From contig NC_019748.1 in assembly GCF_000317575.1 (NCBI RefSeq), positions 1,690,001 to 1,754,000 on the forward strand: a stretch of DNA of 64,000 nt, written 5' to 3'. The stretch is from Stanieria cyanosphaera PCC 7437. GTDB taxonomy: Bacteria > Cyanobacteriota > Cyanobacteriia > Cyanobacteriales > Xenococcaceae. Below, one piece after another: positions 3,207 through 59,191 of the stretch. Made by a program: the position numbers and the translations under genes. The stretch's first letter is position 1, and every line of letters starts with the position of its first letter. The notes beneath the pieces are model-generated. The model ran no database searches. It had not been told where the DNA came from and worked only from the letters and a program-made list of their open reading frames with translations.

Positions 3207-4073
3207 TCACATCGATAATTCTGGTTTAGATTTCCAGACAAATCTTGGTGCTGACCAAATTTGATCCAATACAATGGTCAAAGGTGCTAGCCAAAATAAT
3301 GCCCAAAAAATACCAGTTGAGAGATAAAACCAATCTTTCAAAATCACACTAACAATGGCAATTGTTACAGACCAAAGTATCCGACTGTTTTGAGCATCGG
3401 GTATTGAACGCGGGTCAGTTAACATAAATAAAGCAAAGAGTAATAAGCTACCACTGCTTAATTGATGCCACCAAACATCCCAACTCCAACCAAGCCACCA
3501 ATTACGCATTGCTTCTAAACTGGTGTAGGTTAACAAAAAAGTGACAGAAGTATCCCAACGTCCAACTCGCTTCAGAACTAACCCTCCTGCACCAGCAAAG
3601 AATAACAAATACCACCAATCTGTTCCCCATTGTCCTGGTGAAACCCAGGCATCATCAGTCAAAGTTAAGGCAGCAATAATGCCAAAGTTAGCAGGATTAT
3701 AAAAATGCTTATTGCCACGACGAAATAAAAATTTACTTGCGATCGCACTCAATCCGGCTAGCATCATCGTAGAATAATGATTCGTCCGTAATAATAAGCA
3801 AAGTCCTAACGCTGTAATCAAAGCACTTTTAAGAGAAGAAATAACTACAGAACTAGAAATGATTGCATAGTAACGATGGATTGTAACTGGGTAATTATCT
3901 TGAATCTGAGAATATTCTTGCCATGAGGAGAAACACCATTGAGTAATTAAACAACTAGCGATCGCAACAAAGATAATATTAAAATTTAAAGTCCAATCTC
4001 TGGTATTTAGACCTAAAAATAAAAATGAACCCAGAAAAATCAGTTGATAATCTCGCGCATCTTCTAAAAACAT
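3207..4073 (-). CDS. orphan RnfD/NqrB-family membrane protein
   Basis: 288 residues with about eight to ten predicted membrane spans. Family signatures include GNKHFYNPANFGI, where RnfD/NqrB proteins have a similar N-P-x-N/A motif, and the C-terminal LLLFALFMLTDPRSIP, typical of the NQR2/RnfD/RnfE domain. Characterised RnfD and NqrB carry covalent FMN on a Thr in an S-G-A-T motif; I do not see that motif here. No other rnf or nqr subunits are nearby; the only partner is the downstream exported DUF2330 gene. A role in electron transfer is therefore inference, and it could have become a non-redox membrane anchor. Confidence 0.75.
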   Translation of the reverse strand: MFLEDARDYQLIFLGSFLFLGLNTRDWTLNFNIIFVAIASCLITQWCFSSWQEYSQIQDNYPVTIHRYYAIISSSVVISSLKSALITALGLCLLLRTNHYSTMMLAGLSAIASKFLFRRGNKHFYNPANFGIIAALTLTDDAWVSPGQWGTDWWYLLFFAGAGGLVLKRVGRWDTSVTFLLTYTSLEAMRNWWLGWSWDVWWHQLSSGSLLLFALFMLTDPRSIPDAQNSRILWSVTIAIVSVILKDWFYLSTGIFWALFWLAPLTIVLDQIWSAPRFVWKSKPELSM

Positions 4074-5290
4074 GACAATTGACCATCAATAAATCAGTGT
4101 GATTGAGCTAATCTATTTTTTGTTCTTGAATCAAAAACCAAGAACTTCATCGATATCGATCTTTATCACTAATTGCTTCAGTATCTGTGCAAAAAGAATT
4201 AAACTCAAATCTCGTTACACTTCTAGTAACAAAAAAAACTGAAATTAAGCGCAACAAGTTACGTCTAGAGTCTAATCTTACAATTAATTAATGATTTTTT
4301 AAGCTTTGTGATGGGCAGTTTTAACCATCTAGCGAGATTGTGCTTTTGTTTCGTTAGATTTAATTTCTAGAAACTGAAGTAACTGTTTCAATTATTACCT
4401 TTAAAAAAATCACTGGCTCTATAATAAACTGAGATGATCATAGATTTCTTTCTCTGAGGCGATCGCGAATTTTAGGAGCAAACTCCTCGCAAAATATCAG
4501 CCTACTCTTATGCTTGTTAAGAGTATTAGATTTTCTTGCTTTCAATCAAGAGATATTTTGTTTACTTACCCACGTAACTTGCTAAAGTTGTCAGACTTCT
4601 CGGTTAATAACTCAACTTTTATTATCAGGTTAAAGATAGATAATAGGTAATAGCTAAAGATCTAGTCTCCAATGACTTGCTCATGAGGATTTTCGATTAT
4701 TATATCTCAAGTAATCCAATTTTATAGAAATATTACTACTCTGTGAAGTATTGACTTAATTTTACTATTTTTTTACCTAAATTTGACTTAACAATTTTTA
4801 GACCAACAGTCGGATCGTTGTGTTGAGTTAACCATTTTGTTCAAACTAAGACTGAATTTAAGCCAAATCAGAATCTAAATTAATCAGATTTTATTGGCTA
4901 ATATTCTGCTGAACGAACTTAGCCTAAAATTCTACCTCATTTTTATGGTTAAGCTTGTTTGAGGCACGATTCATCTCAAGGTAATTAAAGATTGTGATTC
5001 TAATTGAGGATTGATTATTAAAATTTTATCTTACCCTCGCTTATTCCCTTAAAACCAATCTTTAGAGAAAATAGTCTCTCCAAAAAACCGACTAAGGAGA
5101 TCATCTTGAGTTGCTGTATTTAAATATATTATTAATATTTTCTTCCGAGCATTTTGATCAAAAAAATCATAACTATAAAAAAAAAAGTGACAATATAGAT
5201 ATTTAACGGTATATTTTTTTTATAATGTCAATTATATCTGATATATTTAATTGGCAATCTCAAAAAGATCAAAGGAAGATTTAGAAAAAA
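4074..5290. other. 1.2-kb AT-rich intergenic region upstream of the cyAbrB gene
   Basis: No frame with coding character was seen on either strand. It contains one HIP1-like GCGATCGC at about 4459, long AT tracts, and near its right end a perfect TATAAT at 5221-5226. The length is unusual for this compact region and leaves room for a non-coding RNA or a long 5' leader, but nothing in the sequence proves one. Confidence 0.4.
5221..5226 (+). promoter_or_regulatory. candidate -10 element for the cyAbrB gene
   Basis: Perfect TATAAT preceded by a T-tract, 64 bp before the ATG at 5291. No good -35 hexamer sits 16-18 bp upstream, so this is a suggestion from sequence only. Confidence 0.3.
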
Positions 5291-5692
5291 ATGAGTGAAA
5301 TTGCAACCGCTCCTTTAACAGGAAAAGCATTACTTCAAAAAGTAAAAGAGCTTTCCCACTTACCAAGAAGAGAAACAGCAAAGCGCTGCGGATATTACAC
5401 TACCACTAAAGACAATCAAACGAGAGTAAATTTAACAGATTTTTATGATGCAGTTCTTGCTGCTAAAGGAGTTCCCCTCGATCCAGAAGGAGCAAAAGAT
5501 GGTCGTGGTCGTGAACCTACTTATAAAGTAAGCGTCCATAAAAATGGTCAAATTGTCATTGGTTCTACTTACACTCAAGCAATGGGTTTAAAAGAAGGTG
5601 ATAAATTTGAAATTAAGTTAGGTTACAAACACATTCATCTCAAACAAGTAGATGATGATGGTGATGATGATGAGACTTTCTCAGAAAATTGA
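5291..5692 (+). CDS. cyAbrB family transcriptional regulator
   Basis: 133-residue cyanobacterial AbrB-like DNA-binding protein. The N-terminal part (TGKALLQKVKELSHLPRRE, then CGYYT) and the C-terminal AbrB-like region (about residues 78-120: YKVSVHKNGQIVIGSTYT, GDKFEIKLGYKHIHLKQ) are diagnostic. The protein ends in an acidic tail (DDDGDDDE). cyAbrB proteins are nucleoid-associated regulators of carbon and nitrogen metabolism genes in cyanobacteria. The LPRRETAK wording looks to me more like the cyAbrB1 (Sll0359-type) than the cyAbrB2 (Sll0822-type) paralogue, but I am not certain. AAGGAAG lies about 13 bp upstream of the ATG. A hairpin terminator follows. Confidence 0.9.
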   Translation: MSEIATAPLTGKALLQKVKELSHLPRRETAKRCGYYTTTKDNQTRVNLTDFYDAVLAAKGVPLDPEGAKDGRGREPTYKVSVHKNGQIVIGSTYTQAMGLKEGDKFEIKLGYKHIHLKQVDDDGDDDETFSEN

Positions 5693-5721
5693 TTTGCTCT
5701 AATCGAATTTGTTGGCAATGA

Positions 5722-5745
5722 ATCGCCTTTGCTTTCAAAGGTGAT
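5722..5745 (+). terminator. stem-loop after the cyAbrB gene
   Basis: Arms ATCGCCTTT (5722-5730) and AAAGGTGAT (5737-5745) pair over 9 bp with one G-U, loop GCTTTC. It starts 29 bp after the stop codon and is followed by only a short TTAT, so it is a plausible but weak factor-independent terminator. Confidence 0.45.
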
Positions 5746-5870
5746 TTATGCTTGCTAAAACTATTTGGAGATTAACTTGATGTAACTCTTGAGCAATAAA
5801 TTATTTGAAGAGGTAAGTTTTATTTAATTTTAACAATTTTTACCATCAAAATAAATTCAAGAAAATTTTT

Positions 5871-6647
5871 TTAGTTTGGTAGAACTTCTCCAGTAGCTAT
5901 AGTTTCGGGAACATCAAATAAGACGGATTTCATATAATATTCTGCCCAGTCGGGTCCAAAAGCTTTTTCTAAGACACGACGAGTTTTGTCGTTTTGTTGT
6001 TGTTTAGTGCAGTAATAGTTTTGTCCAGCTAAATATAATTTTTGTTGTGGAAGAGAAACTGGTTGGGCTTGAACAGCTTGTTGGCAGTGAATCTTTAAAA
6101 AACTTGAAGCTTGCTTCAAAAAATTTTGTTCTTCTGCATCATTTTGAGGACGAACAAATAAACAAAACTCAGAAAAAATATCTGCCCAAGAGGGAAGTTC
6201 GCGAGGTTGAGCAAATTTGTGATCGGGTAAAGCAGAAAGTTCTAATTTATAGTTTTCTGAGAGAGTTTTTTCAGGACTAGTAGGAGAAATATCTGCGATC
6301 GCAGCACTAACTCCTGCTTTGCCTGCAACGATATCGCACCCAAACATTGGTAAAGGATATTGGGTACGAGGAAACATGACACAGTGAAGAATATCCAAGT
6401 TATTGCCGACTTTGGCTAATTCTAGATGCAGCTTACGAAATTGGGGAGTTTGATAACAGCGATTTTCTATTCTTAATCTTTCCCCTTCCAGTTTTCCTTC
6501 AACATAACCCAATCCTTCTGGAAGAGAATAGGGAGATAAATCTAAATATCGTTGCCAGTAATCTAAAATCAGATTGGCTAGCTGACAAATCAAGGGGTGT
6601 TGTTCTTGACGCAGTGAAGGCTGTGTGGTTTCTAACATTTCAGTCAT
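5871..6647 (-). CDS. pcyA: phycocyanobilin:ferredoxin oxidoreductase
   Basis: Reduces biliverdin IXalpha to phycocyanobilin with four electrons from ferredoxin, supplying the phycobilisome and phytochrome chromophore. 258 residues. The catalytic residues fall at the numbering known for the Synechocystis enzyme: Glu76 (in LHLELAK), His88 (in [11 protein letters not shown]) and Asp105 (in FGCDIVAGK). This also supports the ATG chosen as start. The C-terminal region [16 protein letters not shown] is typical. The gene is transcribed divergently from tatA, with a 125-bp shared upstream region. Confidence 0.97.
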
Positions 6648-6772
6648 AAAAACGCTGTAGGCAACTTAATAACATCAGCAGCAAATCTTCATAACCTTAA
6701 AGATATACTGAAACTGTTCTCTTATATATATATAACTATTAATCGTCATTACTGAAACAGAGGAGATCAAAA

Positions 6773-6946
6773 ATGTTTGGTTTAGGTTGGCCTGAAGTAG
6801 CAATCATTGGGATTGTAGCTTTACTCGTGTTTGGACCAAAAAAAATTCCTGAAATTGGCAGTGCGTTAGGCAAAACGCTACGAGGTTTTAAGGAAGAAAT
6901 AAATAATCCCCAACTAGAAGAAGAAGACTCAGAGATAGATAGATAA
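6773..6946 (+). CDS. tatA: Sec-independent translocase subunit TatA/E
   Basis: 57 residues: MFGLGWPEVAIIGIVALLVF forms the single N-terminal membrane helix. The hinge FGPKKIPEIGSALGKTLRGFKEE continues into an amphipathic helix with an acidic tail. This is the classic TatA/TatE architecture; it would oligomerise into the twin-arginine translocation pore with TatC (not in this window). GAGGAG at 6760-6765 is a good ribosome binding site for the ATG at 6773. The nearby NrtA has a twin-Arg-like N-terminus, a possible client, although that link is inference. Confidence 0.93.
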   Translation: MFGLGWPEVAIIGIVALLVFGPKKIPEIGSALGKTLRGFKEEINNPQLEEEDSEIDR

Positions 6947-7152
6947 AGAAATTACTTAAATAATTTTCCTGAAGCCTGTTACTAAAGAATAAAGTTATTC
7001 TAAAAGAAATTTACTGCAATTTTTGAATAATACCTCTCTCAATCGCCTTCAGAGCCTTAAACAATTTGATTTAGTTTCACTTCATGAGAAATTAATCATT
7101 TTCTCACTCTGATAAAAAAAAGACATTTCCATTCTTTGGTAACTTGCTTTTC

Positions 7153-9609
7153 ATGAAGTATTCATTTGATCACTTAAAGCAGCTTATCCCCACGAGCATT
7201 ATTGAACCAGAATTTTTCACTTTTATTACCCAAGCTCCTATAGCGATCGCTCTATTTGACCGACAGATGCGCTATTTAGCAGCTAGTTCTTGCTGGTTAA
7301 AAGAATATCATCTCGAAGATAAGAATCCGATTGGTTATCTTCAAGAACAGATATTACCTAGTCTGTCTCAGCTTTGGCATCAAGGTTATCAAAGTTGTTT
7401 GGTTGGCATGAATTTTCAATCAGCAGCAGAAAGATTAATTCACGATGATGGTTCTGAAGATTGGATTAAGTGTTTCTTTCAGCCTTGGTATAATTCACAA
7501 CATCAAATTGCAGGTGCGGTCGTTTTTACTGAAGTAATTACTGAAAAAAAGTTTCTTCAAGCTCAATTAAAAGCTAGTGAAACCAAAAATCAAGCTATTT
7601 TGAAGGTCATCACTGATATTGTCTTAATAATAGATTACAAAAAACAACAGATCAAAATTATTCCTACTAATCAAGCTTCTTTTTCTCAAAAGAGAGTTAA
7701 TTTGATTAATCAGACTATTAGTAAGTTTTATAGTAAGACAACTTCTAAAAAGTTTTGGCAGCTAGTTAATCAAGCTTTAACGACCAGAAAAAATGTCAGC
7801 TTTGAATATAGTGTGTCAGAAGAGGAAACTCAACAATGCTTTACTGCTAATATTTCTCCTCTCTCTAAAGATACTGTGATTTGGGTAGCACGGGACATCT
7901 CCTCTCTGAAGCAAATAGAACAAGCTTTATCACTAGAACAAGAATTAGCCAGAGTTACGTTACAATCGATCGCTGATGCAGTGATTACTACCGATGCAAA
8001 TGGTAAGGTCAACAATCTTAATCCAATGGCAGAACAACTAACTGGTTGGACAGAAGAAGAAGCTTATGGACTAAATATTACAGAAGTATTTCAGTTAGTA
8101 GATGAAAAAACTAAAAAACCACTGACTAAAACCTTAGAGCTAGTTTTAAAACAAGAACAAACAGTCTGTTTATCAACTGATACAGTTTTAATTACTCGTG
8201 ATGGTTCTGAATACGCGATCGAAGATTCGGCAGCACCTATTTATAATTATCAAGGTGATGTAATTGGGATGGTGATTATTTTTCATGACGTGACTGGTTC
8301 TCGTCAATTAACTCGTCAATTATCTTGGCAAGCTCGCCACGATCCACTTACAGGATTATACAATCGGCTTGAATTTGAACGACAAGCTCAACAAACAATT
8401 ATTGCTGCACAACAAGAAGATTCCCATCATATTCTTTGTTATCTCGACCTCGACCAATTTAAACTTGTTAATGATACCTGTGGTCATGCTGCTGGAGATG
8501 AATTATTAAGGCAAGTGACCAATTTAATGCAACGAAGAGTTAGAACTACAGATGTTTTGGCTCGTTTGGGAGGAGATGAATTTGCCTTACTTCTTTATCA
8601 TTGCTCTCTAACAGAAGGAGAAAAAATTGCTAATACTTTAAGGGAATTAATTAAGAATTTTCGTTTTACATGGCAAAAAAACAGTTTTACGATTGGAGTT
8701 AGTATTGGTTTAGTCACCATTGATCGAAATAGTACTAATTTAAATCAAGTTTTAAGTGCTGCTGATGCTACTTGCTACGCAGCAAAGCAAAAAGGACGTA
8801 ATTGTATTCAAGTTTATGCTCCTGAAGAATGTAATTTATCTCAACAACAAGGCGATTTACCCTGGATTAATCGTTTAAACCAAGCTTTAGCAGAAAATCG
8901 TTTTTGTCTTTATTGGCAAAACATTGCTCCAGTGAGCGATCGCTCTCAACGAAAACATTATGAAATTTTATTGCGTTTGATTGATGAAACAGGCGCGATT
9001 ATTCTTCCTGGTGCTTTTATTCCTGCTGCGGAAAGATACAATCTCATGCCTACAATTGATCGTTGGGTAATTAATACGTTTTTCAAACTTTACGAACAAT
9101 GTTGTCAAAAAGAGTCGAACAGTGACAACATTTATACAATCAATCTTTCGGCAACCACTATTAATCAAGGAGAGTTGTGCCAGTTTCTCAAAGAACAATT
9201 TTCTTTGTATACAATTTCTCCTAATAATATTTGCTTTGAAATAACTGAAACAACTGCGATCGCTAATTTAACTCAAGCTACTCAATTAATCCAAGAATTA
9301 AAGCAATTAGGTTGTTATTTTGCTTTGGATGATTTTGGTAGCGGAATAAGTTCTTTGACATATTTAAAGAATTTGCCCGTCGACTATCTCAAAATTGACG
9401 GCTCTTTTATTAAAAATATTACCAACGATCCGATTGACCGCGCTACAGTAGAAGCTTTTAATCGAATTAGTCACGTTATGAAGATCAAAACTATTGCCGA
9501 GTTTGTTGAGAATGAGGATATTTTAGCTTCTTTAAAAGAGTTAGAAATAGATTACGCTCAAGGCTACGGAATTGCTAAACCTATTCCTCTCTCTTTTGCT
9601 TGTACTTAG
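7153..9609 (+). CDS. PAS-GGDEF-EAL bifunctional cyclic-di-GMP protein
   Basis: 818 residues from ATG at 7153 (a TTG three codons earlier is less likely). In order: PAS-like domain about 15-140, a weaker PAS-like region 140-260, a clear PAS 270-395 with TTDANGKVNNLNPMAEQLTGW, GGDEF domain 405-565 and EAL domain 580-815. The diguanylate cyclase signature is intact (GGDEF at 473-477). The EAL side keeps the metal and catalytic residues: E604 in EILLRL, the N of INLSA, EITET, D726-D727 in LDDFGSG, K in LKIDGS, and E in AEFVE. Both activities are therefore possible, with PAS domains probably setting the balance. No transmembrane segment, so probably cytosolic. Confidence 0.92.
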   Translation: MKYSFDHLKQLIPTSIIEPEFFTFITQAPIAIALFDRQMRYLAASSCWLKEYHLEDKNPIGYLQEQILPSLSQLWHQGYQSCLVGMNFQSAAERLIHDDGSEDWIKCFFQPWYNSQHQIAGAVVFTEVITEKKFLQAQLKASETKNQAILKVITDIVLIIDYKKQQIKIIPTNQASFSQKRVNLINQTISKFYSKTTSKKFWQLVNQALTTRKNVSFEYSVSEEETQQCFTANISPLSKDTVIWVARDISSLKQIEQALSLEQELARVTLQSIADAVITTDANGKVNNLNPMAEQLTGWTEEEAYGLNITEVFQLVDEKTKKPLTKTLELVLKQEQTVCLSTDTVLITRDGSEYAIEDSAAPIYNYQGDVIGMVIIFHDVTGSRQLTRQLSWQARHDPLTGLYNRLEFERQAQQTIIAAQQEDSHHILCYLDLDQFKLVNDTCGHAAGDELLRQVTNLMQRRVRTTDVLARLGGDEFALLLYHCSLTEGEKIANTLRELIKNFRFTWQKNSFTIGVSIGLVTIDRNSTNLNQVLSAADATCYAAKQKGRNCIQVYAPEECNLSQQQGDLPWINRLNQALAENRFCLYWQNIAPVSDRSQRKHYEILLRLIDETGAIILPGAFIPAAERYNLMPTIDRWVINTFFKLYEQCCQKESNSDNIYTINLSATTINQGELCQFLKEQFSLYTISPNNICFEITETTAIANLTQATQLIQELKQLGCYFALDDFGSGISSLTYLKNLPVDYLKIDGSFIKNITNDPIDRATVEAFNRISHVMKIKTIAEFVENEDILASLKELEIDYAQGYGIAKPIPLSFACT

Positions 9610-9789
9610 ACTTTATTGATTGAAAATACTGTTGATAATATTAACAATTAATTTAAGATTTCAAGTCTGTTTAAAAGCCAGAGGTTCACTGCTATCCTGT
9701 AGTAGCTAAGCGCCACGAGCTAGCCGAGATAGTACTTTCTGTCTTAAAACTATTTAAAATTAGAATTGAAGACTTTCATAATTAAAGTC

Positions 9790-10068
9790 ATGACCAATAT
9801 CCGAGAAGAATTAAATCGCAAATTAAATAACTTATCTCCCGAACAACTTAATTCGGTTTGTGAATTTGTAGAATTTTTAGAGTACAAACAACAGCCTGTT
9901 AAAACAGAAAAACCTATTACCAACGAAGATATAGACAAAATTGTTGAATCCTATCGTCAACAAAACAAACCGCTACCAATCGGTTTAGCTAAAGGTGAAT
10001 TTCTTGTTCCCGATGACTTTAACGATCCGCTACCCGATGAAATTCTAGATTTATTTGAACCGAAATGA
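9790..10068 (+). CDS. antitoxin of a VapBC-type pair
   Basis: 92 residues from ATG at 9790; a TTG at 9766 would add eight residues and is less likely. The N-terminus REELNRKLNNLSPEQLNSVCEFVEFLEYK resembles the short helical region of DUF2281-like antitoxins found next to PIN toxins in cyanobacteria. The acidic C-terminus DDFNDPLPDEILDLFEPK would neutralise the toxin. The stop overlaps the toxin ATG by 4 bp (ATGA), the usual translational coupling of toxin-antitoxin modules. Family call is from layout plus sequence character. Confidence 0.75.
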   Translation: MTNIREELNRKLNNLSPEQLNSVCEFVEFLEYKQQPVKTEKPITNEDIDKIVESYRQQNKPLPIGLAKGEFLVPDDFNDPLPDEILDLFEPK

Positions 10069-10460
10069 GAATATTGTTAGATACCCATATCTTTCTGTGG
10101 CTGATTGAAGATAACAAGCGTTTATCAGATCGATATCGCCAAGCAATTCAAAATCCTAATAATGAAAAATTTTTAAGTGTTGTCTCAATCTGGGAATGTG
10201 TAATTAAATATCAAATTGGCAAATTAAATTTTCCTAGTTCTCCAGAAATTTATCTACCAATGCAAAGAAGAGAACACCTAATTAAAACAATTAATGTTGA
10301 TGAGAATAGTATTGCTCAACTAATTAATCTTCCTTTAGTACATGGCGATCCCTTTGATCGCCTAATTATTGCTCAAGCTTTACAATATGATTTGGTTATA
10401 ATGACTCAGGATAAAGCAATACTAGCTTATCCAGAAATTAGGATTTTGCCTAATAATTAA
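10065..10460 (+). CDS. PIN-domain ribonuclease toxin, VapC family
   Basis: 131 residues of PIN fold. The acidic metal-binding residues are present: D6 (LLDTHIFLW), E44 (SIWECVIK), D95 and D98 (VHGDPFDRLIIAQA) and D116 (TQDKAI). The DTHIFLW and GDPFDR wording is that of the Sll0205-like PIN subgroup. It probably cleaves RNA when not held by the antitoxin encoded immediately upstream with a 4-bp overlap. All catalytic residues look intact, so the module may be active. Confidence 0.88.
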   Translation: MRILLDTHIFLWLIEDNKRLSDRYRQAIQNPNNEKFLSVVSIWECVIKYQIGKLNFPSSPEIYLPMQRREHLIKTINVDENSIAQLINLPLVHGDPFDRLIIAQALQYDLVIMTQDKAILAYPEIRILPNN

Positions 10461-10591
10461 TTATTTTAGATGTTCAATTAAGTTTATATCCTTTCCTACG
10501 CAAAAATAATACTAACTAAAGCGATCGCATCAGAAAATATCACTAAAGCTATAATTAACTTAAAACTTATAATTAGAAATTTGACAGAAAA

Positions 10592-28834: not shown

Positions 28835-30292
28835 ATGTTTGATGCTCTAGCAGAACGTTTAGAAGATGCGTGGAAGAAACTGCGCGGTCAAGATAAAATC
28901 AGCAAATCTAATATCCAAGATGCTCTTAAAGAGGTACGTCGTGCTTTATTAGAAGCTGATGTTAACCTTCAAGTAGTTAAAAATTTTATTGCAGAAGTTG
29001 AAAAGGAAGCTAATGGTGCGGAAGTCATCTCTGGAGTAAACCCAGGACAACAATTTATCAAAATTGTCTATGACGAGTTAGTCAAAGTGATGGGGGAAAG
29101 TAATGTTCCTCTAGCACAAGCCGACAAAGCTCCTACTATAATTCTAATGGCAGGTTTACAAGGTACAGGGAAAACTACCGCCACTGCTAAATTAGCTCTT
29201 TATTTGCAAAAACAACAACAAACTTGTTTAATGGTCGCTACAGACGTATATCGTCCTGCTGCGATCAATCAGTTGTTAACTTTAGGCAAACAAATTAATG
29301 TTCCTGTGTTTGAAATGGGAACCGATGCCAATCCTGTAGAAATTGCTCGCCAAGGAATTGAGAAAGCCAAAGAATTAGGTGTAGATACGGTGTTGATTGA
29401 TACTGCGGGACGATTGCAAATCGATCAAGACATGATGGCAGAATTAGCTCAGATCAAAGAAACCGTTCAGCCTCATGATACTTTATTAGTAGTAGATGCC
29501 ATGACTGGGCAAGAAGCAGCCAATCTTACCCGTACTTTCCATGAACAAATTGGCATTACAGGGGCAATTCTGACCAAATTAGATGGTGATAGTCGTGGTG
29601 GTGCAGCTTTATCGGTAAGACAAGTATCGGGACAACCGATTAAGTTTGTCGGTGTCGGGGAAAAAGTAGAAGCATTAGAACCTTTTTATCCAGATAGACT
29701 AGCTTCCCGTATTCTCAATATGGGAGATATTCTGACTTTAGTAGAAAAAGCTCAGGAAGAGATTGATTTGGCTGATATGGAAAATATGCAGTCGAAGATT
29801 CTCGAAGCTAAATTTGATTTTAATGACTTCCTCAAACAAATGCGCTTACTGAAGAATATGGGTTCTTTGGGTGGGGTGCTGAAGTTGATTCCTGGGATGA
29901 ATAAAATTAGTGGTGCGGATTTACAAAAAGGAGAAACCCAACTCAAACGCACCGAAGCAATGATCAACTCGATGACCAAAGAAGAAAAAAGTAATCCTGA
30001 ATTACTGGCACAGTCTCCTAGTCGTCGTCGTCGTGTGGCTAAAGGTTCTGGTTTTGAAGAAACTGATGTCTCCAAACTAATTAAAGATTTTACCCGAATG
30101 CGATCGCTGATGCAACAAATGGGTAAAGGAATGCCTGCTATGCCTGGTATGGGTGGTATGCCTGGTATGGGCGGAATGCCTGGTATGGGCGGAATGCCTG
30201 GTATGGGTGGTATGCCTGGATTTCGAGGCTATCAAGGCGGTTCTAAGAAGAAGAAAAAAACCAAGAAAAAGAAAGGTTTTGGTTCTTTATAA
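28835..30292 (+). CDS. ffh: signal recognition particle protein Ffh (SRP54)
   Basis: GTPase that binds signal sequences and SRP RNA and targets nascent membrane proteins to FtsY and the translocon. 485 residues: N domain 1-85, G domain about 95-295 with G1 GLQGTGKTT (107-115), DTAGR and TKLDGD, and M domain about 325-450 with SRRRRVAKGSG as the RNA-binding helix-loop-helix. The tail (about 445-485) contains repeated GGMPGM units followed by a lysine-rich end (KKKKKTKKKKGFGSL); the tandem repeat is described separately. The ATG at 28835 gives the usual N-terminus MFDALAERLE. Confidence 0.97.
   Translation: MFDALAERLEDAWKKLRGQDKISKSNIQDALKEVRRALLEADVNLQVVKNFIAEVEKEANGAEVISGVNPGQQFIKIVYDELVKVMGESNVPLAQADKAPTIILMAGLQGTGKTTATAKLALYLQKQQQTCLMVATDVYRPAAINQLLTLGKQINVPVFEMGTDANPVEIARQGIEKAKELGVDTVLIDTAGRLQIDQDMMAELAQIKETVQPHDTLLVVDAMTGQEAANLTRTFHEQIGITGAILTKLDGDSRGGAALSVRQVSGQPIKFVGVGEKVEALEPFYPDRLASRILNMGDILTLVEKAQEEIDLADMENMQSKILEAKFDFNDFLKQMRLLKNMGSLGGVLKLIPGMNKISGADLQKGETQLKRTEAMINSMTKEEKSNPELLAQSPSRRRRVAKGSGFEETDVSKLIKDFTRMRSLMQQMGKGMPAMPGMGGMPGMGGMPGMGGMPGMGGMPGFRGYQGGSKKKKKTKKKKGFGSL
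30139..30222 (+). repeat. in-frame Met-Pro-Gly-Met-Gly-Gly tandem repeat in ffh
   Basis: About four to five copies of an 18-bp unit (ATGCCTGGTATGGGYGGN) encode MPGMGG repeats near the C-terminus. The third-position changes between copies show that the array is moderately old. Length variation between strains would be expected. Confidence 0.8.
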
Positions 30293-56434: not shown

Positions 56435-56836
56435 AATTAATTTATTTGTGGTCTAAATAGAATAGCGATCGGTAAAATTTAATGCTTGAAGTATAAGATG
56501 ACTAATAAAACAAGGATAATGAAGAATGGTAATTGTTCCCGATTGTAAATTTCCAGGGACAAAATTAACCAATTCCGAGTTAGCTTCAAATTAGAGCGGT
56601 CTTTAATACTCTGTTTATTTTTAATACTGATTAATGATTCCAATGCCATTTTGGCAACACTAATTGCTTCTTTCTTGTCTAAAATTCAATATAAACCGAT
56701 GGTTATAGTAGCTGCTTAAACCAAATAGATCAAATGCTAAACAACAAGGAATTTAGTCTTAAAATCCTTGTCGATCAATTAGCTAAGTTGTGTAATTTTC
56801 CGAGTGCTGGTCTAAGCTAGTTTGACTATTAAACAC
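56435..56836. other. 402-bp divergent upstream region
   Basis: It lies between the epimerase (minus) and the GNAT-TPR gene (plus). AT-rich, with no coding frame, array or operator recognised. Confidence 0.3.
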
Positions 56837-59191
56837 ATGAACATCGACATAATTGATAATCTTGAAACGTTTCAGGCTCTCAAAAGCAATTGGGAATATG
56901 TTTATCAAGCAGATTCTGAAGCTCAGTTTTTTATTTCTTGGATTTGGATTGCTGGCAAACTCAAAAAATACGAAGAAAATAAATTGCCTTGGTTTATTTT
57001 GGCAGTCAAATTAAATTATGATGCTTCAGAATATGTTGCCTTTTTTCCTTTAGAAATTGAAATTAAACAATCTAATCCAGGTGATTTTTATAATCAACTT
57101 GCCACCGTAGGAGTAACAGATGCAGATTACTCAGGATTTATTTGCTTACCACAATACGAAGAAGAGATAGTTACTGCCTTGGCGCAATATCTTCAACAGC
57201 AAGAAACTTGGTCAGTTTTTGAATTAGAACACATTCTTACTACAAACAAGAAATTAAATCTATTTTTAAAAAAATTCGTTCAACCAGATTTTGAAATCCA
57301 ACAACTTAACTCTGAGTATTTTACTAATTCTTTAGATGAAATTAATAATCAGATTATTCCTTATGTTGTTTTGCCAGATAGCTGGGATGATTATCTACAA
57401 AATTGTTTAAGTTCAAATACCAGACAAAAAATTAGACGTTTTTTTCGGAAAATCGAAAGCTCTGATGAGTTTCGCCTTACTGAAGTTGATGCAGACAATT
57501 TAGAACATCATATTGAAATACTGATTAAACTTTGGCGAGCTAATTGGGAAGGTAGAAAAGGCGCAGAAAGTTGTGATGCAATAGTGCATTCGATGAATTT
57601 AGAGTTACATCATTGCTTTGAGAATAATTGTTTATCTTTACTTATTTTATGGAAAAAAGAACAGCCTCTAGGAGCAATAGCCAACTTGATTGATAGAAGT
57701 AAAAAATCTATTTTGTTTTTTGTTGGTAGTCGAGATGAAACTTTTAAGGAACTACCACCTGGTTTTGTTCTTCATGCTTATGGTATTCAATCCGCCATTA
57801 ATAATGGATTCAAAATCTACGATTTTTTAATGGGAAATGAGGCGTATAAATATTCTTTTGGAGCTAAAGAACGTTATATTCAAACTATTCTGGTTCAACG
57901 TCAAAACTGGATACAACAAAACAAAAAACTTGATCAACGAACTCTGCCAATTGCACTTGAGATTACTAAAAATTATCATCGAGCTAACCATCTGGTTGAG
58001 GCTGAAAAAGGATACCGTCAAATTTTAGCAGTACAAGCGAACCATCCAGAGGCACTATATGGTTTAGGTGTGCTTAGGCAACGTCAGGGACAATATCAAG
58101 CTGCTCAAGATTTGTTTAATCATTTAATTCAAGTTGAACCGAACCAGATCAAAGCTTGGTTTAGTTTGGGTAATATCTATCAATTTCAAAACCAGTTGAG
58201 CGACGCAGAACAAGCATATCAGCAAGCGTTAAATCTACAACCAGAGTCATCAGCTATTTCTTCAGCAATTTATCATAATCTTGGTTATACTTTTCAATTA
58301 CAGAATAAATGGCAAAATGCGATCGCTTGTTATCAAAAAGCCCGAGAACTTCAACCTGATTCTGTAGAAGCTGAGGTGATTTGGGCTAATGCACTTGATA
58401 CTCAAGGTCAATTATCTCCCGAACAACAAGCTGATTATGCTCTCAAAAATAGTGATTTGGGTAATAAACGACTTCAGGCAAGTGATTTTAGTGTGGCGAT
58501 TGAATACTATCGTCAAGGGATCTCACTTAATCCAAAGTTGGCAGAGGCTCATTATCATTTAGGAGTAGCATTAGAAAAACAAAGTCAGAATAACTATCCA
58601 GAAGCGATTTCTTGTTATCAAAAGGCAATTGAACTTCAACCAAACTATCTCGAAGCAGAGGTTAGTTTAGCTAATTTACTTGATACTCAAGGCAAATTAT
58701 CTCCTGAGCAACAAGCGGATTTGGCAATCAAAAATAATGAATTAGGAAATAAATGTTTACAGGAAGGTTATTGTAGTGTGGCGATTGAATACTATCGTCA
58801 AGCGATCGCACTAAGTTCAGATTGGGCAGAAGCTCATTATCATTTGGGAATAGCATTAGAAAAACAAAGTCAGAATAACTATCCAGAAGCGATCGCTTGT
58901 TATCAAAAGGCAATTGAACTTCAACCAAACTATTTAAAAGCAGAGCTAAGTTTAGTAAATTTACTTTATGCCCAAGGAAAGTTATCAGATCAACAAAAAG
59001 TAGATTATGCAGCCAAAAACAACAATCTAGCTCATCAGTATCGACAAGCAGGCAATTTAAAACTGGCGATCAAATATTATGAGCAAGCACTGGCATTAAA
59101 TCCACAATTAGTAGATGCTCGTCATCAGTTAAGACTAGCGTTACAAGAACAGAGCGATCATCAAATCAAGATTAGTTGTGCCAAGCAATAG
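56837..59191 (+). CDS. FemAB/GNAT-like acyltransferase fused to TPR array
   Basis: 784 residues from ATG at 56837 (MNIDIIDNLETFQAL); a TTG at 56822 would add five. Residues 1-355 resemble the CelD/BcsL-type GNAT domain: FFISWIWIAGKL, VAFFPLEIE, SSNTRQKIRRFFRKIE, LWRANWEGRKG, PPGFVLHAYGIQSAI, YDFLMGNEAYKYSFGA. Residues about 365-780 are TPRs (ALYGLGVLRQRQGQYQAAQDLF and so on) with a clear 95-residue duplication. It probably acylates or aminoacylates a sugar or peptide, with the TPRs recruiting other proteins. Family placement is by pattern; the substrate is unknown. It ends 17 bp from the convergent smc. Confidence 0.82.
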   Translation: MNIDIIDNLETFQALKSNWEYVYQADSEAQFFISWIWIAGKLKKYEENKLPWFILAVKLNYDASEYVAFFPLEIEIKQSNPGDFYNQLATVGVTDADYSGFICLPQYEEEIVTALAQYLQQQETWSVFELEHILTTNKKLNLFLKKFVQPDFEIQQLNSEYFTNSLDEINNQIIPYVVLPDSWDDYLQNCLSSNTRQKIRRFFRKIESSDEFRLTEVDADNLEHHIEILIKLWRANWEGRKGAESCDAIVHSMNLELHHCFENNCLSLLILWKKEQPLGAIANLIDRSKKSILFFVGSRDETFKELPPGFVLHAYGIQSAINNGFKIYDFLMGNEAYKYSFGAKERYIQTILVQRQNWIQQNKKLDQRTLPIALEITKNYHRANHLVEAEKGYRQILAVQANHPEALYGLGVLRQRQGQYQAAQDLFNHLIQVEPNQIKAWFSLGNIYQFQNQLSDAEQAYQQALNLQPESSAISSAIYHNLGYTFQLQNKWQNAIACYQKARELQPDSVEAEVIWANALDTQGQLSPEQQADYALKNSDLGNKRLQASDFSVAIEYYRQGISLNPKLAEAHYHLGVALEKQSQNNYPEAISCYQKAIELQPNYLEAEVSLANLLDTQGKLSPEQQADLAIKNNELGNKCLQEGYCSVAIEYYRQAIALSSDWAEAHYHLGIALEKQSQNNYPEAIACYQKAIELQPNYLKAELSLVNLLYAQGKLSDQQKVDYAAKNNNLAHQYRQAGNLKLAIKYYEQALALNPQLVDARHQLRLALQEQSDHQIKISCAKQ
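58493..59062 (+). repeat. 285-bp direct repeat inside the GNAT-TPR gene
   Basis: GTGGCGATTGAATACTATCG at 58493 recurs at 58778, an interval of 285 bp (95 codons), and the two copies are near-identical over long runs (for example AAACAAAGTCAGAATAACTA and the following bases). The protein repeat reads VAIEYYRQ through QADLAIKNNELGNKCLQ. The high DNA identity indicates a recent internal duplication. Confidence 0.85.

Follow-up and report, generated by a model that had tools for sequence, protein, structure and literature searches.

We analysed a 64,000-nucleotide stretch of the Stanieria cyanosphaera PCC 7437 chromosome (hereafter the window), in which a gene at 56837..59191 on the + strand encodes a protein, designated W, with a GCN5-related N-acetyltransferase (GNAT)-type domain fused to a long array of tetratricopeptide repeats (TPRs). 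Most homologs of this gene are located in clusters for the export of small peptides with a double-glycine (GG) leader, and both exporter and precursor genes are present elsewhere in the source genome. The likeliest function, to which we give about an even chance, is that of a TPR-docked acyltransferase modifying exported peptides before their cleavage by the C39 peptidase, because of the linkage to export genes, the presence of a TPR arm of a docking type and the published case of GNATs that acylate lanthipeptides and ribosomal peptides, as described in the accessible part of PMC13060382.

Export clusters around the homologs

The loci of 17 other cyanobacterial homologs (L012, L026–L036 and L064–L068) were surveyed for genes of the export cassette, using profiles of the exporter, HlyD and SurA (five sequences each) and of HetP (three sequences). 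To avoid circularity, these profiles were derived exclusively from enzyme-less clusters (L084, L085 and L087–L089). Within 10 kb of the homolog gene, the exporter was detected in 10 of the 17 loci, HlyD and SurA in 13 each, and HetP in 11; at least one of the four was present in 14 loci, and several of the missing cassette genes coincided with contig ends. Small open reading frames (ORFs) with a leader of the D-L-x-Y-L…GG type were found in 16 loci (15 beyond doubt, that of L030 being doubtful), L027 and L036, both at contig ends, having peptides only. Altogether, a cassette gene or a precursor-like peptide accompanied the enzyme gene in 16 of the 17 loci. Six genomes of approximately 39 Mb contained 28 C39 domains, and by arithmetic at most approximately 1.4% of positions are expected to lie within 10 kb of such a domain by chance. 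As a control for the leader pattern, exporter locus L053 was not matched, though it holds GG peptides of a type outside the pattern.

The clusters of L033, L034 and L035 comprise a C39-peptidase ABC exporter (HetC type), HlyD, SurA/PpiC, HetP and 'DLNYLE…GG' precursors. The L028 exporter showed Peptidase C39, ABC membrane and ATPase domains, along with a cNMP-binding match that was weak and below the cut-off (E 0.003), and the HetP and PpiC/SurA of this locus were identified through NCBIfam and Pfam. Other maturation systems were also detected beside the GNAT-TPR gene, namely, the microviridin maturases mvdC/mvdD with a precursor in L012 (12642–15627) and a Nif11 radical-SAM maturase with a Nif11 precursor in L029 (8059–9953), all over the cut-offs, and an ATP-grasp maturase-like protein flanking the gene in L032, below the cut-off. 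In addition, an RTX-repeat protein is encoded near the gene in L030 (Pfam), with BLAST relatives in L012, L036 and L068. The substrate could thus be another product of the island, such as RTX-type proteins, the HetP-like tail peptide, microviridin or Nif11 peptides, instead of the DLNYLE peptides. We regard this as unlikely: except for HetP (11 of 17), each candidate was found in a minority of the loci, whereas the DLNYLE-type peptides were beyond doubt in 15.

Two further observations were made in these clusters. The HetP-like proteins at L052 13454–13789, L028 7281–7673 and L032 11359–11781 carry a DLxY(L/Q)…GG leader-like stretch near the end, followed by a short tail; the tail peptides are possible cargo of the HetC-type exporter, and the leader-like ending of HetP is already described in the part of Wang et al. 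2011 (PMC3140520) available to us. Directly downstream of the GNAT-TPR gene of L026, a protein of the animal haem peroxidase family is encoded (8715–10523, E 1.1e-160).

The precursor peptides were analysed as two groups. The A4 group (13 sequences) has the leader MIISDLNYLE…GG and a core holding KGNLATAEADAYG, and the A5 group (9 sequences) has the sequence …ISDLSYLEPI…VVGG and is rich in Ala, Ser and Thr. Four DLNYLE-type or similar peptides were scanned, and none matched an NCBIfam family or a Pfam family above the cut-off. Among the four alphaproteobacterial loci with a GNAT-TPR homolog, two contain exporter genes: a PrtD-type exporter and HlyD adjoin the gene in Ciceribacter (L023), and an annotated HlyD gene is located near the homolog on Sinorhizobium meliloti pSymB (L025). 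The third, on the Skermanella plasmid pSM-1 (L022), contains peptides matching the cyanobacterial precursor core, and L024 carries an ABC importer-like set. On pSM-1, two small ORFs at most 1.4 kb upstream of the GNAT-TPR gene matched the A4 core with 40.7 and 37.4 bits (E 2e-11 and 2.3e-10; 1,128 ORFs searched), with one other small annotated ORF in between, and a third match was found near the edge of the locus (E 3.2e-5). Of 2,584 control ORFs, none attained E 0.05, and 2,000 shuffles gave at most 10.5 bits. In a joint alignment of 20 peptides, one G and one A of the core were conserved in every sequence, and 19 of the 20 share a further G. With the A5 profile, the best match in the alphaproteobacterial loci had E 0.22 and was not convincing. 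A conserved lysine, as the putative acceptor residue, was rejected as evidence: K occupies the best column in 14 of 20 peptides, and that column carries no weight because the lysine also occurs in four of five peptides taken from enzyme-less clusters, and both Skermanella peptides lack it. Separately, the Rhizobiaceae loci L023 (3646–5685) and L025 (3664–5718) encode related proteins of approximately 680 amino acids (aa), 40% identical, near the secretion genes and GNAT-TPR homologs; the L023 protein matched neither Pfam nor NCBIfam.

Six precursor clusters without the enzyme (L084–L089) were hand-picked from strong A4 or A5 matches, among 90 A4-bearing genomes of the order that lack the enzyme. 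The L088 cluster very closely resembles that of L028 (exporter 87%, HlyD 84%, SurA 92% and HetP 75% identical), and compared with L028 its ORF list lacks the GNAT-TPR enzyme and one peptide. The HetC-type exporter and precursor cluster of L087 encodes a TPR-GT41 protein of 1,612 aa (3731–8566, − strand; PF13844, E 1.8e-55) as well as a 522-aa TPR-hexapeptide protein (749–2317, − strand; PF00132, E 5.1e-12), and L085 retains a 95-aa TPR stump; no TPR gene was recognized on reading L084, L086, L088 and L089. The other catalytic head on a TPR arm is thus one example and not a rule, and gives a hint of a broader but rather doubtful idea: TPR superhelices may serve peptide export islands as a general platform for docking, on which swapped catalytic heads (FemAB-like GNAT, GT41 glycosyltransferase or hexapeptide transferase) would decorate one family of exported peptides, with the core G-N-x-A…A-x-G common to cyanobacteria and alphaproteobacteria. 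If so, the GNAT form would establish TPR-guided peptide acyltransferases as a new enzyme class, the peptides would be a novel family of secreted peptides that carry modifications, and repeat number would alter the reach of the enzyme.

Acyltransferase half and TPR arm

The GNAT-TPR gene (C1:1746837) is a single open frame from ATG at 56837 to the stop at 59191, encoding 784 aa; an alternative start, TTG, is located at 56822. The N-terminal part of the acyltransferase half (aa 1–192, 56837..57412) had no Pfam match and is conserved in eight aligned homologs (alignment A1), as exemplified by the motif A-x-FF-x-SW-x-W at aa 29–37. It is followed by the PF13480 Acetyltransf_6 (GNAT) domain (aa 193–338, 57413..57850; E 8.7e-19), which scored 68.5 bits against a gathering cut-off of 22. 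PF13480 was the only Pfam match in the half preceding the TPRs, and the GNAT halves of all eight homologs in A1 matched this family unaided (E 0.01 or better). GT41 (PF13844) was absent among the 25 listed of the 31 Pfam families matched at E 0.1. The sequence YDFL-x-GNE-x-YK (aa 328–338) is invariant across the eight homologs. Of 82 columns invariant in the other seven, the GNAT half of W deviates at nine, none inside YDFL-GNE-YK, and it therefore shows no apparent sign of decay; the corresponding count for other rows of the alignment ranged from 0 to 32. One further PF13480 gene, encoding 403 aa, was found in the source genome.

Proteins with PF13480 are often labelled FemAB-like, which raises the alternative of an aminoacyl-tRNA-dependent transferase that would add amino acids to the peptide. 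The GNAT halves matched none of the NCBIfam FemAB models at E 0.01, and we hold this to be very improbable. No NCBIfam family covers the GNAT half of W, and across the eight homologs the sole match was a GNAT effector model in three (best E 0.00068).

The second half of W forms a predicted TPR superhelix (aa 367–783, 57935..59185) of 22 helices in about 11 pairs. Pfam detected TPR_9 at aa 380–435 and TPR_1 with E 1.9e-47 (best stretch 439–470), so that tandem helix pairs of the model match TPR profiles. AlphaFold2, with W and one relative as the only input, gave a confident helical array (block means of 72–95 for residues 381 to 770) and nothing usable ahead of residue 364. For the GNAT half alone, modelled with two sequences, the mean pLDDT was 35.6; the strand and helix order in aa 257–361 of this model is GNAT-like in appearance, and too uncertain to count. 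In a Foldseek search with the TPR half, O-GlcNAc transferase took ranks one and two, ahead of a designed TPR protein at rank three, and SPINDLY occupied ranks six to eight, the top matches having E values from 1.3e-17 to 5e-16. Since the TM-scores were low and the root mean square deviation (rmsd) was large, this result indicates a superhelix and little beyond it.

These domains also bear on a mainly scaffolding, non-catalytic role, in which the TPR arm would bring precursors to the exporter in an unfolded state, with the GNAT half acting only as a binding domain. Five Sinorhizobium plasmid records match aa 1–131 of W only, a part that S. meliloti pSymB joins to TPRs, and two of the six enzyme-less clusters contain a TPR stump (L085) or TPRs with other catalytic domains (L087). 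However, conservation of the GNAT half across the eight aligned homologs is strong and extends to YDFL-GNE-YK, and we give this role a low probability. The pSymB copy (L025 10001–11212) joins approximately aa 1–131 of that half to TPRs, its PF13480 region being apparently absent as judged by reading.

The TPR arm includes a 285-bp repeat that encodes a 95-aa TPR unit. Three copies were observed in register on the + strand, at 58301..58585, 58586..58870 (79.6% identical to copy 1) and 58871..59155 (73.0% to copy 2 and 66.7% to copy 1). The highest identity is confined to a core at 58489..58675 (+), which is 89.3% identical over 187 nt to the stretch 285 nt downstream and contains exact runs of 29, 43 and 38 nt. 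Tandem Repeats Finder reported two rows that overlap, each with a period of 285, at 82% and 80% matches. Directly upstream (58001–58300), the identity at the same lag was 10–33% per 30-nt bin, and therefore the 285-nt repeat is not due to chance. The encoded units are 69% (units 1 and 2) and 59% (units 2 and 3) identical.

Units were then counted in ten proteins, including W, with a profile built from its unit; weak single-TPR matches preceding the units are left out of the count. Three 95-aa units were detected in W, L033 and L035, and one full and one partial unit, followed by an interruption, in L034. Six of the ten proteins had a single unit (that of L012 being cut at the protein end), two of these with an extra partial match. 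Although the three-unit form is common to W, L033 and L035, units 2 and 3 are not nearest to their counterparts there. Unit 1 of W is 69% identical to unit 1 of L033, and unit 2 of W is 69% identical to unit 1 of W but 47% to unit 2 of L033. Because unit 2 is nearer to its own neighbour, the extra units look as if they arose, or were homogenized, within lineages. As a side observation, the GNAT-TPR gene of genome G252 (L034 9001–13110) is split by an insert carrying a 562-aa ORF on the opposite strand, and the gene of its close relative, L035, is uninterrupted.

The earlier note, prepared from the sequence of the window, had described a GNAT-type domain fused to a long TPR array, and the domain search that it proposed for the N-terminal half bore this out, with PF13480 in W and all eight homologs, and TPR_1 behind it. 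Its 285-bp internal duplication is real, and in three copies, but 'near-identical' is true only of the 187-bp core, within which the pair that it cites (58493 and 58778) falls. A recent near-identical duplication of the entire repeat was rejected in view of the identities of 79.6, 73.0 and 66.7%, and on the nucleotide comparison 'recent' would fit at most the core. A lineage-specific duplication in the array found support in the nearness of unit 2 to its own unit 1, while no evidence was obtained for an 'actively expanding' TPR part: the copies differ in both DNA and protein, and the analysis covered one strain of the species.

Chromosomal setting of the window copy

The fusion is uncommon, as the earlier note had proposed. 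Homologs were found in 11 of 388 genomes of the order (E 1e-30), 9 of 388 of the class (E 1e-10; one being the weak, TPR-less L037 and one contig-cut), 4 of 27 of the family and 8 of 100 relatives (E 0.001; two weak), these counts referring to this fusion family alone. The congener G001, the sole other genome of the genus shown, has no homolog. Of 72,556 plasmid records, nine contain a homolog, all alphaproteobacterial; three of these span at least 80% of the query at 37–39% identity. A phage origin was rejected, with no match in 50,697 phage records or, by pattern scan, in viral contigs. A contig scan with the single window protein as query yielded one locus, and an alignment query might reach further. 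The cyanobacterial homologs have 512–801 aa and a conserved domain order, except for the TPR-less L031 and the contig-cut L036.

In the window, the neighbours at 47.5–56.4 kb read as glycosyltransferases, nucleotide-sugar enzymes (epimerase), response regulators and a kinase, an assignment by reading only. From such neighbours, the earlier note had suggested polymer modification; accordingly, W might be a polysaccharide acyltransferase whose gene moved beside sugar genes and which modifies a surface polymer. The distant homolog L037 (E 1.7e-24) is also located among genes that read as a polysaccharide cluster, including an epimerase 65% identical to that of the window, and more distant members of the superfamily may have a polysaccharide role. 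However, G001 keeps homologs of eight window genes from 47.5–56.4 kb without the GNAT-TPR gene, L037, which has no TPRs, is very distant (end branch of 6.67), and W groups (99/99) with L033, L034 and L035, all of which are inside exporter clusters. With the sugar block present in the congener without the gene and most homologs in peptide export clusters, polysaccharide modification was rejected as first choice and seems improbable. The SMC gene next after the GNAT-TPR gene lies approximately 0.73 Mb from the sugar block in G001. Because this downstream gene and the upstream sugar block are so far apart there, the GNAT-TPR gene, by gene order in the two genomes, sits at a rearrangement point. 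Elsewhere in the window, an 18-bp tandem repeat (30131–30219) codes for a Met/Gly/Pro-rich sequence at the C-terminal end of the gene 28835–30292, by reading a signal-recognition-particle GTPase.

In the source genome, a HetC-like exporter, HlyD and HetP are encoded at C1:1541007–1546789 (L052), approximately 0.2 Mb from the gene; their identities to the cluster proteins are 52–58%, 40–54% and 50–58%, respectively (four best rows each). Four leader-bearing peptides and a SurA gene are present at C1:922–926 kb (L063).

Several observations weigh against the modification of exported peptides by W. Profiles detected no cassette gene within 10 kb upstream and 4.8 kb downstream of the window copy, and no leader peptide was found from 17.8 kb upstream to 19.8 kb downstream by the leader pattern and reading of ORF starts (a scan covering chromosome positions 1,729,001 to 1,769,000); L037 likewise has neither nearby. 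The congener G001 has an exporter set including HlyD and HetP (L054) and SurA with other GG peptides (L077) but lacks the enzyme, and the enzyme is therefore optional. A4 peptides occur in 100 of 388 order genomes versus 11 of 388 for the enzyme, and A5 in 69 of 388. A4 was detected in 10 of the 11 enzyme genomes (not in G085), a count that is partly circular since A4 was built from such loci and the source genome, and A5 in 7 of 11; the best A4 peptide of the source genome is short and diverged, and G001 gave zero A4 matches and one weak A5 match. The 17 surveyed loci are not independent, as family f2 accounts for five, f1 for four, f45 for three and five other families for one each, and the sole locus with neither cassette nor peptide, L031, is a second, TPR-less copy in genome G011. 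In the alphaproteobacteria, the Skermanella peptides have no GG leader, L023, L024 and L025 gave no A4 match (so that only one of the four loci has A4-core peptides), and L022 and L024 have no exporter of such kind within 10 kb. Finally, for the GNAT half, no solved structure related by sequence was found and no usable structure model was obtained.

Comparison with known systems

Taking peptide acylation before export as the working model, the enzyme would be a cytoplasmic acyltransferase with the TPR superhelix as a docking arm. The arm would bind the cargo of a C39 exporter cassette of the HetC type, whether small peptides with a double-glycine leader or something else, and the GNAT domain would move an acyl group from a coenzyme A (or acyl carrier protein, or aminoacyl-tRNA) donor onto the bound peptide. 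Acylation would precede the C39 peptidase cut behind Gly-Gly, with exit via the ABC exporter/HlyD channel, and the count of 95-aa units may set the arm length and thereby which substrate, or how long a substrate, is held. In the source genome, the enzyme would act in trans, serving precursors and an exporter whose genes lie elsewhere. If this holds, TPR-placed acyl groups would be added to the chemistry of cyanobacterial secreted peptides.

The closest description of such clusters is that of the cyanobacterial bacteriocin clusters of groups I and II (Wang et al. 2011, PMC3140520). In the accessible parts of PMC3140520 and PMC4558948, clusters of this type comprise the exporter, HlyD, SurA and HetP-type precursors with the motif KIXDLXYLEX10GG. 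The clusters found here are alike in the long C39-peptidase ABC transporter with an N-terminal nucleotide-binding domain (for which the L028 exporter showed just the weak cNMP-binding match), HlyD, SurA, HetP-like proteins with this motif and many small double-glycine precursors. The window gene itself lies outside any such cluster, with no C39 ABC exporter, HlyD, SurA or GG precursors detected around it in the ranges given above. In the main text of PMC3140520, as far as it was available, the terms 'acetyltransferase', 'GNAT', 'TPR' and 'tetratricopeptide' do not occur, further modification domains being listed in its supplementary tables; the accessible part of PMC4558948 contains one GCN5-type acetyltransferase, in a microviridin cluster. 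A search of the open-access literature, as far as its texts were available and with subscription papers and supplements outside its range, found no GNAT-TPR protein in such clusters and no such modification.

The GNATs of selidamide and nostolysamide biosynthesis (NpuN; PMC13060382) are alike in belonging to the GNAT superfamily, in occurring in cyanobacterial and alphaproteobacterial peptide clusters and in acylating ribosomal peptides on their side chains. In contrast, NpuN relatives serve NHLP or Nif11 leaders, and a TPR arm is unmentioned in the available part of that paper; this distinction is by description and not by sequence. Among our loci, a Nif11 precursor stands beside the gene of L029, the small ORFs of other loci having been scanned in part. 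O-GlcNAc transferase and SPINDLY (GT41) are alike in joining a long TPR superhelix to a transferase, but the catalytic domain here is GNAT and not GT41, and the structural matches had low TM-scores and large rmsd.

As for the exporter, the accessible part of a 2024 paper on HetC (PMC10986499) states that what HetC transports is not known and that a search near hetC found no gene encoding a typical leader. A modifying enzyme keeping company with one HetC-type precursor family, the core of which is also present in another phylum, would point to a testable cargo. PteB/EbfG of Synechococcus elongatus is alike in that a C39 transporter exports several small GG-motif proteins (PMC4997328, PMC9981879), a likeness by description and not by sequence, and differs in that an acyltransferase is unmentioned in the parts of these papers available. 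According to the same parts, the exported proteins are needed for biofilm and build matrix, some being amyloid-forming, and this biofilm role is a possible parallel for the DLNYLE-type peptides.

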